A stretch of 64,000 nucleotides of DNA. Origin: Acetomicrobium hydrogeniformans. Lineage in GTDB: Bacteria > Synergistota > Synergistia > Synergistales > JAFGMB01. Within the stretch, counting starts at the first letter, position 1. Every line of letters starts with the position of its first letter. The position numbers were made by a program, and so were the translations under genes. The stretch is taken from contig JAENYO010000002.1 of NCBI GenBank assembly GCA_016841745.1, positions 248,001 through 312,000 of the forward strand. Reading direction: 5' to 3'. Below are positions 25,261-28,978 of the stretch, piece by piece. The notes under the pieces were generated by a model that did not search any database, was not told the origin of the DNA, and saw only the letters and a list, made by a program, of their open reading frames with translations.

Positions 25261-25305
25261 TGAAAAGGTGGTTCCCGTAGTTCGGGAACCACCTTTTCTA
25301 TTTTT
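25261..25305 (+). terminator. Rho-independent terminator after DsrE-like gene
   Basis: Perfect 16-bp stem (25261-25276 with 25282-25297, core GGTGGTTCCCG) with a 5-base loop and a TTTTT tail. Confidence 0.9.
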
Positions 25306-25787: not shown

Positions 25788-26504
25788 ATGGTGTGCAACA
25801 TGAAGAATTCTTCCGTCAAGTGGTGGGGAAATATATGGAATACAAAAATGGATAATTTATCTTGCAGGGAAATGAGAGTAAGAATCAAGGGGTGGTCTTT
25901 CTCCCATTTATTGCGTTTGCAAAGCCGGACCTGGCAGGTTCATATTGAAGGTCAAGAGCGCCTGAACCGATTATATGCTGACAAGAAGCGATTTTTGTTT
26001 TGTTTCTGGCATGGGAAATACGTGCAGATATTTCCTCTGCTGGAAGGTTACGAGGTATGTGTTATAACCAACCGGTCAGAGCGGGGGAATGTTATCGCTG
26101 AAGTCAGCCTAAATCTGGGTTATCAGAGCACCCAGATTCCGGACCAGCCACGCCGTGGATCTCTTGACCTTATGAAAAAAGAATTGATCGCGGCTCAGGC
26201 GGGAGGAGTAGCTGTCGATGGACCGTTGGGTCCACGTCACCGTGTGAAAAGCGGTGTGATAAGAATTGCTTCAGCAGCAGGATTTGATCTTTTACCGATT
26301 TCGGTGGGTAGTCGAAGGAAAATAGTGTTTCAAAAACGATGGGACCGGATGGAGATTCCCCTGCTCTTCACAAAGGTCTGTCTGGTCATTGGTGAGACCA
26401 TCAAAATACCGCCCGAACTTCGTTCCGCACAGCTTCGAGATCTGACTGACAATCTTGCAGAAACCATTTTAAAGCTGGACAAGAAGGCCGAAAACATGGT
26501 TTGA
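25788..26504 (+). CDS. Lysophospholipid acyltransferase-like protein (DUF374)
   Basis: 238 aa resembling the DUF374 branch of the LPLAT acyltransferases. The FWHGKYVQIFPLL segment at about 68-80 is equivalent to the family FWHGR motif that supplies the catalytic histidine. AVDGPLGPRHRVKSGVIRIASAAG at about 145-168 corresponds to the DGPRGPR...KPG segment. These enzymes acylate lipid or lipid A-like acceptors at the inner membrane. The start is uncertain: ATG 25788 has only a weak upstream site. It lies about 260 bases before a glycosyltransferase fusion gene, and both may serve glycolipid synthesis (inference). Confidence 0.75.
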   Translation: MVCNMKNSSVKWWGNIWNTKMDNLSCREMRVRIKGWSFSHLLRLQSRTWQVHIEGQERLNRLYADKKRFLFCFWHGKYVQIFPLLEGYEVCVITNRSERGNVIAEVSLNLGYQSTQIPDQPRRGSLDLMKKELIAAQAGGVAVDGPLGPRHRVKSGVIRIASAAGFDLLPISVGSRRKIVFQKRWDRMEIPLLFTKVCLVIGETIKIPPELRSAQLRDLTDNLAETILKLDKKAENMV

Positions 26505-26767
26505 AAGAAGGGGACAAAAAAGAATACATTGGGATTGCGGATCGATGATGAAATTGTTTCCTGAAACTTCTCGCAAACGTCCCGGTGTAGGCCTCGCTAT
26601 GCCTTGTATTGACGACTTTTTTTTGCTCCTGCTGTTTCCTCGATGATTTTACAATTGGACATAGATCTACTGGTTTTGTCCTGGAGATTTTTCACGATAG
26701 ATATGGGGAGTGATCGGCATTGCCATTATCCAAAGGGAAATCTTCGCCGTAAAAAGGTGGTCCGACA

Positions 26768-28978
26768 ATGAACCGTAAAAAGAAACTAAAACTGCTTCTG
26801 GCCTGTATTGTGCTGCTTATGGTTACTCTTGTCGGCTATAAGGTCTATCTATTTGTTTATGAAGCAGATTACGAGGCGCTCAATGCCGACAATATCGATC
26901 AGATCGCATTGCGCCTCCATGATAAAGACACATTCAGCTTTGCTGTTCTAGGCAATGTTGAGAATTCCATGAAAATTTTCGAGAAGCGTTTTGTTCCCCT
27001 GATCCAGGACAAGGGTGCCGATTTTATGGTATCTGTTGGAAACGCCGTCTCCGACGGCGATGAAAGCAAATATAGATTGCTTCACCGTGGATTTCAAAAA
27101 CTTGGGATCCCATACGTGCTGGCCATCGGCCAAAATGAGGTTAATGATTTTGGTACCATTAAATTCTACCGGCATTTCGGGCCACTTTTCTTTTCCTTTC
27201 ATCTCCCGAATTCATATTTCATCTTCCTTGATTCAACTGGACAAACATCGTGGAAATGGCAGGAAAGATGGCTGAAAGATGAATTGGAGCTGGCCAGGAT
27301 GTATCCATATCGATTTGTGGTCTTAAACCACTGTCTCTCCCCATTACCTGGTTTTGACCCGGATGACGCCAAATATATCCTGGATGAAAACCGCAGTCTG
27401 TTTTTGCATGAGTTGTTTTCCCGGAACCAGGTTACGGCCGTTTTTTCGGGCGGTTATCCTGGTTACCATGAAACCGTATTACAGGGAGTCGCGTATATCG
27501 TATCGGGTGGCGGAGGCGGATTGCTTCTGGGTCAGACGAAAGAGCCTTACCAGTTTGTAAGAGTCGTTGTAGGACAGGATCAGGTAACATATGAAAATAT
27601 GGCTATCTCCCACCGGCTGGGTCCTTTTCTCTATAAACTGGAAACGCTGAAGCTTTTTCTGCACTCATTTTTCTATATGAGTCTTTTTAACTTTCTTGTT
27701 ACTCTTAGTATCATCAGTCTCTTTGCACTGAGGCTGTATTCTCTGCTAATTCGTCAGGAGCATTTTTACCGCGACTTCAGCATAGATGAAAAGGCGCTTT
27801 CCAAAGAGCCGCTGCGCGTGGCCATGTTTACGAATAATTATCTTCCCTTTATGGGAGGAGTACCCATTTCCATCGACCGGCTCTATCGAGGGCTTGTTGG
27901 CACCGGTACAAAGGTGAAACTCTTTGCCCCCCTGTATCCGCAACAGTGCCCCGCGACCCAGGATGATAGAGTCTTCCGATGCCCTGTTCTTTTTTATACG
28001 CGCAGGGAAAACTTCCCGATTTCCAATATTTTTTCCCGAAAGATCGAAGCAGAGTTCAAAACCTTTGACTGTGACCTGGTCCATGTCCACCATCCTTTCT
28101 GGCTTGGCAAGAAAGGGATGCAGCTTGCCAGGAAACGAGGCATACCGGTGGTTTTCACCTACCACACCAGGCTGGAACGCTATACGCACTACATCCCTCT
28201 GCCGGGTACGATTCTAAAAAACCTGACTGCCCATTTTCTGATCAAGCACTTCGCCAACAAGTGCGATGCCATTATCACACCCACAGCCTCCACAGAGGAA
28301 TACCTGCGAAACCTCGGTGTCAGCGCCCTGATCGAAACGATTCCAACCGGTATAAGGATGGAGGATTATAAACGATGGGCTCCCCATCAGGTTAAGGCTC
28401 TGCGAAGTCGATATGCCGCCCCGCAAGATCGACTTCTGATAAGCGTTTCACGAATGGCACAGGAAAAAAATGTTGACTTTATGATCGATGGGTTGGCTAA
28501 AGTTAAAAATAGAACTCACATACCTTTTAAATGCCTCCTGATAGGAGATGGACCGGAGAAAGAGCGACTTGAGAAAAAAGTTGCCGAGCTTGGTATGGAT
28601 GACTGGATTGTTTTTACCGGATATATGGCTCCGCACGAAGTTGCCCTGTGTTACCTTGCTGCCGATCTTTTCGTTTTTGCCTCGACTTCCGAAACCCAGG
28701 GAATGGTTCTGCTGGAAGCAATGGCCGGGGGATGTCCCGTTGTGGCGGTTCGCGCCAGCGGGGTCTACGACGTGGTGAAAGATGGGTACAATGGATTCAA
28801 GGTTGCCGAAAGCACCGATAACTGGGCAGATGCGGTAGCAAGTCTTTTAGAGGATGACAAACAGCGATCGGGAATGTCTGAGAATAGCCAGATATTTGCC
28901 AGGGATTACTCCATGAAAAAAACCACAGCAAAGATTTCAAGACTTTATCGGCGGGTAATAATCCTCGGTCAACCATAA
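26768..28978 (+). CDS. Transmembrane fusion: degenerate metallophosphoesterase domain + GT4 glycosyltransferase
   Basis: 736 aa. A lysine-rich N-terminus and TM1 (about 9-30) precede a calcineurin-like fold (about 55-285), TM2 (about 300-327) and a GT4 domain (about 348-730). By the positive-inside rule the first domain is periplasmic and the second cytoplasmic. Most metal ligands of the phosphoesterase are replaced: GNVEN for GD-x-H (N63), VGNAVS for GD (N92), GQNE for GNHE (122-123), GGYPG for GHxH (228-232); only H188 remains. The GT4 part looks active, with a GG loop near 363 and the E-x7-E motif in SETQGMVLLEAM. It resembles lipid hexosyltransferases. RBS AAAAAGGTGG. Confidence 0.8.
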   Translation: MNRKKKLKLLLACIVLLMVTLVGYKVYLFVYEADYEALNADNIDQIALRLHDKDTFSFAVLGNVENSMKIFEKRFVPLIQDKGADFMVSVGNAVSDGDESKYRLLHRGFQKLGIPYVLAIGQNEVNDFGTIKFYRHFGPLFFSFHLPNSYFIFLDSTGQTSWKWQERWLKDELELARMYPYRFVVLNHCLSPLPGFDPDDAKYILDENRSLFLHELFSRNQVTAVFSGGYPGYHETVLQGVAYIVSGGGGGLLLGQTKEPYQFVRVVVGQDQVTYENMAISHRLGPFLYKLETLKLFLHSFFYMSLFNFLVTLSIISLFALRLYSLLIRQEHFYRDFSIDEKALSKEPLRVAMFTNNYLPFMGGVPISIDRLYRGLVGTGTKVKLFAPLYPQQCPATQDDRVFRCPVLFYTRRENFPISNIFSRKIEAEFKTFDCDLVHVHHPFWLGKKGMQLARKRGIPVVFTYHTRLERYTHYIPLPGTILKNLTAHFLIKHFANKCDAIITPTASTEEYLRNLGVSALIETIPTGIRMEDYKRWAPHQVKALRSRYAAPQDRLLISVSRMAQEKNVDFMIDGLAKVKNRTHIPFKCLLIGDGPEKERLEKKVAELGMDDWIVFTGYMAPHEVALCYLAADLFVFASTSETQGMVLLEAMAGGCPVVAVRASGVYDVVKDGYNGFKVAESTDNWADAVASLLEDDKQRSGMSENSQIFARDYSMKKTTAKISRLYRRVIILGQP

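Follow-up and report, generated by a model that had tools for sequence, protein, structure and literature searches.

A gene of Acetomicrobium hydrogeniformans appears to encode, in a single chain, a calcineurin-like phosphoesterase domain without metal ligands at the outer side of the membrane and a glycosyltransferase at its inner side. This arrangement raises the question of what a former phosphoesterase may still do when it is tethered to a probable lipid-modifying enzyme. We analysed the locus within a 64,000-nucleotide stretch of genomic DNA (contig JAENYO010000002.1, positions 248,001 to 312,000), hereafter called the window, and compared it with related loci in other genomes. A search of the literature returned no description of such a fusion.

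The ORF (26768-28978 of the window; all window features given here are on the + strand) is real and complete, and it codes for 736 residues, with the length and coordinates reported in the preliminary description of this DNA. The possibility of a spurious or broken gene was ruled out by the intact frame and by the selection that acts on it, and there are 11 other full-length homologues. From the N- to the C-terminus, the protein comprises a first membrane segment, TM1 (residues 4-33; 26777-26866), a predicted periplasmic calcineurin-like domain (residues 35-285; 26870-27622), a second membrane segment, TM2 (residues 300-329; 27665-27754), and a GT4 glycosyltransferase domain (residues 349-731; 27812-28960). 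Hydropathy analyses located both membrane segments on either side of the calcineurin-like domain in all six homologues tested, in agreement with the initial proposal. The Lys/Arg-rich N-terminus before TM1 and the basic residues after TM2 are consistent with a predicted topology in which the N-terminus and the glycosyltransferase are cytoplasmic and the phosphoesterase domain is outside. We place the latter outside because its intact relatives have signal peptides or TM anchors. LpxC is present in all eight genomes tested, so that these bacteria are expected to be diderms, with a periplasm and lipid A. AlphaFold2 models based on an alignment of the window protein, its L021 homologue and the L022 fragment had mean pLDDT values of 37 for the whole chain and 52 for the N-terminal part, both too poor for pocket analyses. 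A Foldseek search with the latter model, whose mean pLDDT of 52 is too poor for the outcome to carry meaning, yielded no match below 1e-3.

Including that of the window, we collected 12 fusion proteins, from two small phyla and one unplaced MAG, with 35-94% identity between the full-length homologues. They are found in 7 of the 188 genomes of the window's phylum, in 4 of the 12 genomes of a second phylum and in L021, a MAG deposited as Deltaproteobacteria (79% identity). Other families of the domain, sampled with ~200 genomes, yielded no further fusion. The window protein shares 75% identity with that of G295, from the other phylum, versus 41% with those of members of its own order. This high identity across phyla and the patchy presence of the gene suggest that the fusion may have spread by horizontal transfer, but in an AU test monophyly of the members of the window's phylum was not rejected (p 0.09).

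The outer domain of the window protein was overlooked by Pfam annotation, as no phosphoesterase match was obtained for this protein. In two relatives, PF00149 scored 14.7 and 14.1 bits, below the cut-off of 21.5. The calcineurin-like fold, which had been recognized from the sequence alone, was supported by two comparisons. An intact paralogue from the same genome (G000:C14:108849-109568) matches residues 35-275 of the window protein with an E-value of 1.5e-26, and an hhalign comparison of the fusion domain with eight intact relatives gave a probability of 100% and an E-value of 1.2e-42 over 261 columns. Among PDB entries, a profile built from both fusion and intact sequences matches GpdQ-type phosphohydrolases and purple acid phosphatases.

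By profile comparison, the same fold is shared by PF00149 relatives that are either exported (L023 8829-9650) or TM-anchored (L083 12720-13709), the TM-anchored ones having the same TM1-domain-TM2 plan as the fusion. The fusion domain differs from these proteins in that it lacks the metal site, falls under the Pfam threshold and is joined to a GT4 domain. Intact two-TM phosphoesterases devoid of glycosyltransferase thus occur among the relatives, and no glycosyltransferase is attached to any of the further large phosphoesterases that we encountered in distant genomes. Phylogenetic analysis placed the fusions in one group (support 100/100) and the TM-anchored intact phosphoesterases without glycosyltransferase in a separate one (support 99/99); the tree favours none of the intact types as the nearest to the fusions. 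The run GD/N-x-K-N-S is confined to TM-anchored proteins and most of the fusions, and it leads us to favour the TM-anchored type as the probable source of the fusion domain. G295 harbours an intact two-TM phosphoesterase with all ligands (L083:12720-13709), encoded on the strand opposite to the fusion gene, with two regulator genes between them.

The intact relatives display the motifs GD, GD, GNH(E/D), H and HxH. The histidine of the DxH motif is already missing from them (GDNK/GDTR), and its absence is therefore not part of the loss undergone by the fusions. A homologue search and a motif alignment of the whole chain, the check put forward in the preliminary description, showed the complete metal site to be absent from 12/12 fusions, with an altered GNH motif and no HxH. 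Two Asp residues of the intact relatives are replaced by Asn in all 12 (N63, codon 26954-26956; N92, codon 27041-27043), and in the window protein GNHE has become GQNE at positions 121-124 and HxH has become GxP at 229-231. The ligand losses first noted in the window protein hold for the whole group. The additional claim that H188 is the sole ligand kept has to be abandoned. In the alignment, the column of the catalytic His is occupied by the adjacent residue, N187, and residue 188 itself varies between H, R and D, with R or D in six fusions out of 12.

Could the outer domain still catalyse a reaction, either without metal or at a metal site that has been rebuilt? Its strong purifying selection (see below) and its conserved polar and aromatic residues, among them E124, H136, D155, T157, T160 and W162, would be compatible with an activity. 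However, both Asp residues are Asn throughout the fusions, no new invariant His, Cys or acidic residue is present at the motif positions, and residue 188 is H, R or D, making this explanation improbable.

We estimated selection by the Nei-Gojobori method on eight pairs of sequences. The dN/dS ratios are 0.08-0.25 for the phosphoesterase domain and 0.08-0.19 for the glycosyltransferase domain, and residues 286-345, which include TM2, represent the most constrained stretch of the chain (0.02-0.11). Conservation is still higher in the former active-site loops than elsewhere in the domain (p 0.005), an effect carried by loops 1, 2 and 6; of the six loops, two (3 and 4) are relaxed. A motif, FLDSTGxTSWxWQ (residues 153-165; 27224-27262), is nearly invariant in the pseudoenzyme clade only: the 9-mers that start at residues 153-157 have mean entropies of 0.26-0.35 in the fusions versus 1.07-1.46 in the intact relatives. 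Purifying selection as strong as that on the glycosyltransferase, together with this new conserved motif, argues that the outer domain is a maintained pseudoenzyme, not a relic. The loss of the metal site and the relaxation of two motif loops might be taken as signs of a fused phosphoesterase that is decaying and has no present role, but dN/dS is far below 1 in every pair, length and topology are constant over 35-41% identity and two phyla, and N63 and N92 are invariant. We consider such a decay very improbable.

The glycosyltransferase domain is intact, as had been surmised. Both Rossmann halves score above the cut-offs (PF13439, E 1.5e-30; PF00534, E 5e-38), and E642/E650 of the EX7E motif as well as R562/K567 are invariant in the six homologues aligned. 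For GT4 enzymes of this type, nucleotide sugars serve as cytoplasmic donors. Among the NCBIfam models, the closest is alpha-monoglucosyldiacylglycerol synthase (NF049988), with 185.5 bits, less than half of the 400-bit cut-off. The fusion has in common with this family and with other GT4 lipid glycosyltransferases the GT4 fold over the whole domain and the EX7E motif, but it differs from NF049988 by that low score and by its extra membrane and periplasmic part of 345 residues. The acceptor could be a polymer or an undecaprenyl lipid rather than diacylglycerol. We also identified GT4-only relatives of the fusion's transferase (L060:4244-5524 and L061:1800-3095), whose genes overlap a preceding glycosidase-like gene with a product devoid of Pfam match; L060 belongs to the window's own family.

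In the window, the fusion gene is preceded by a gene for a DUF374 (LpxJ-like) acyltransferase of 238 residues (25788-26504), the only DUF374 gene found in this genome. The interval between the two (26505-26767) is the scar of a deleted LPG_synthase_TM gene, with a 5' trace up to ~26560 and a 3' trace from 26677. By blastn, the two flanks of the deletion are 84% (up to 26560) and 83% (from 26677) identical to the L021 locus, with ~775 bp missing, and tblastn with the LPG_synthase_TM gene gave no match at 26505-26767. A terminator-like 16-bp stem (25262-25298), identified by a consensus match only, lies at the putative boundary between an upstream DsrE-like gene and the DUF374-fusion unit. In a sigma-70 scan, candidate promoters were no more numerous than in shuffled sequences.

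In most relatives, a flippase-like LPG_synthase_TM gene (PF03706, E-values down to 1e-36) directly precedes the fusion gene and overlaps it by 4-17 bases. It accompanies the fusion more constantly than DUF374 does, a link that the window could not reveal because the gene is lost there. It is found beside the fusion in G295, G392, G393 and the five g12 genomes, and it is partial in G394 and L021. The L021 gene lacks 24 conserved residues, and in G035 (L026) the gene is eroded to a 40-codon remnant. The window thus has no MprF-like flippase gene beside the transferase, only the deletion scar. The order DUF374, LPG_synthase_TM, fusion is found in G295, G392, G393, L021 and L022, and DUF374 adjoins the fusion directly in the window and in G035. 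In the L022 MAG, the frame of the fusion gene is broken (L022:3363-4286), which may be an assembly error, and the adjacent LPG_synthase_TM and DUF374 genes are intact. The link to DUF374 genes suggested by the window therefore holds in part: it extends to seven loci, in both phyla, but not to the five g12 genomes or to G394. The broader lipid context is supported, with DUF374 upstream and a flippase-like gene that is present in most relatives and lost in the window. On the same strand, G295 and G392 also have genes for a PAP2 protein, a DedA/PAP2/LssY_C protein, a response regulator and a histidine kinase. The loss of the flippase-like gene in the window and in G035 indicates that there is no strict requirement for the complete module. 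A second, more distant LPG_synthase_TM paralogue is present in 9 of the 10 genomes searched, including that of the window (C7:313612-314607), where it could stand in for the deleted gene.

DUF374 proteins correspond to the LpxJ family of late acyltransferases of lipid A (PMC6148475). The His/Asp pair and the W-D motif proposed for LpxJ are kept in the window protein, as H75, D144 and W185-D186, which align with those of intact DUF374 proteins. It differs from LpxJ in that it scores under the Pfam cut-off, and the Asp that aligns, in our alignment, with D86 of Rickettsia LpxJ (SxxDG), where it is needed, is replaced in the module proteins (SERG, SKRG, SVRG or TRKG). The module also resembles HexSDF-HexRK of Clostridioides difficile, a glycolipid operon next to a two-component system, whose HexF is an MprF-like flippase candidate (PMC10128005). 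Both combine a glycolipid synthase gene with an MprF-like flippase gene devoid of the lysyl-transfer domain, and a two-component system adjoins the fusion's module, as HexRK does, in G295 and G392 only. Unlike the fusion, HexS is annotated as a monogalactosyldiacylglycerol synthase, with no outer pseudoenzyme domain described (PMC10128005); HexD is a deacetylase, whereas the fusion's module encodes a DUF374 acyltransferase, and the flippase gene is lost from the window. MprF itself is a scramblase of broad specificity (PMC11980842).

Taken together, the GT4 model and the likenesses to LpxJ and MprF/HexF point to a pathway in which a glycolipid is made, acylated and moved outwards. From its family and context, the cytoplasmic GT4 domain would put a sugar on a membrane lipid, the LpxJ-like DUF374 enzyme would acylate the same product or its precursor, and the LPG_synthase_TM protein, by analogy with MprF and HexF, would carry the product to the periplasmic leaflet. 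Through part of the old cleft and the new aromatic motif, the metal-less domain might then bind either a ligand, for instance a lipid headgroup, or a partner, for instance the flippase, and the transferase would be coupled to this binding or tuned by it via TM2. We thus lean towards the view that the fusion is a glycolipid synthase of the inner membrane and that its outer pseudo-phosphoesterase, by binding a ligand or partner in the periplasm, couples or tunes the transferase. The anatomy of the protein and its lipid context are well supported. As for the sensing or scaffolding role that we infer for the outer domain, it fits the selection on that domain, the conservation retained in the old active-site loops and the strong constraint on TM2, without these amounting to proof.

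Possibly, although we have doubts about it, the outer domain is solely a scaffold or docking module, for instance for the LPG_synthase_TM protein or DUF374, with no small-molecule ligand. There is a precedent for this in Dpb2, which contains an inactivated calcineurin-like domain (PMC7308368). In such DNA polymerase B subunits, a non-catalytic phosphoesterase fold is retained as a module, as in the fusion, but those proteins are nuclear, and their partner and process are unrelated to those of the fusion. The position of the flippase-like gene directly upstream in most relatives and the fact that TM2 and the linker form the most conserved stretch also speak for docking. In contrast, a pure outer-surface scaffold would need neither the invariant N63 and N92 nor conserved loops 1, 2 and 6, and selection on the domain persists despite a damaged flippase gene in L021 and its loss in the window.

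Returning to the coupled glycolipid synthase, a more specific version, which we regard as rather unlikely, is that the periplasmic pseudo-phosphoesterase reads a lipid of the outer leaflet, or the scramblase, via its old cleft and feeds back on the GT4 domain of the same chain. If so, lipid synthesis on one face of the membrane would respond to the lipid on the opposite face. Little is known about how bacteria adjust lipid production at the inner face to the lipid at the outer face. This single chain, which pairs an outer pseudoenzyme with a probable lipid glycosyltransferase on the inner side and has a flippase-like neighbour in most relatives, offers a compact test case. The existence of intact TM-anchored versions without glycosyltransferase, in one instance in the same neighbourhood, opens the change from enzyme to pseudoenzyme to direct study.
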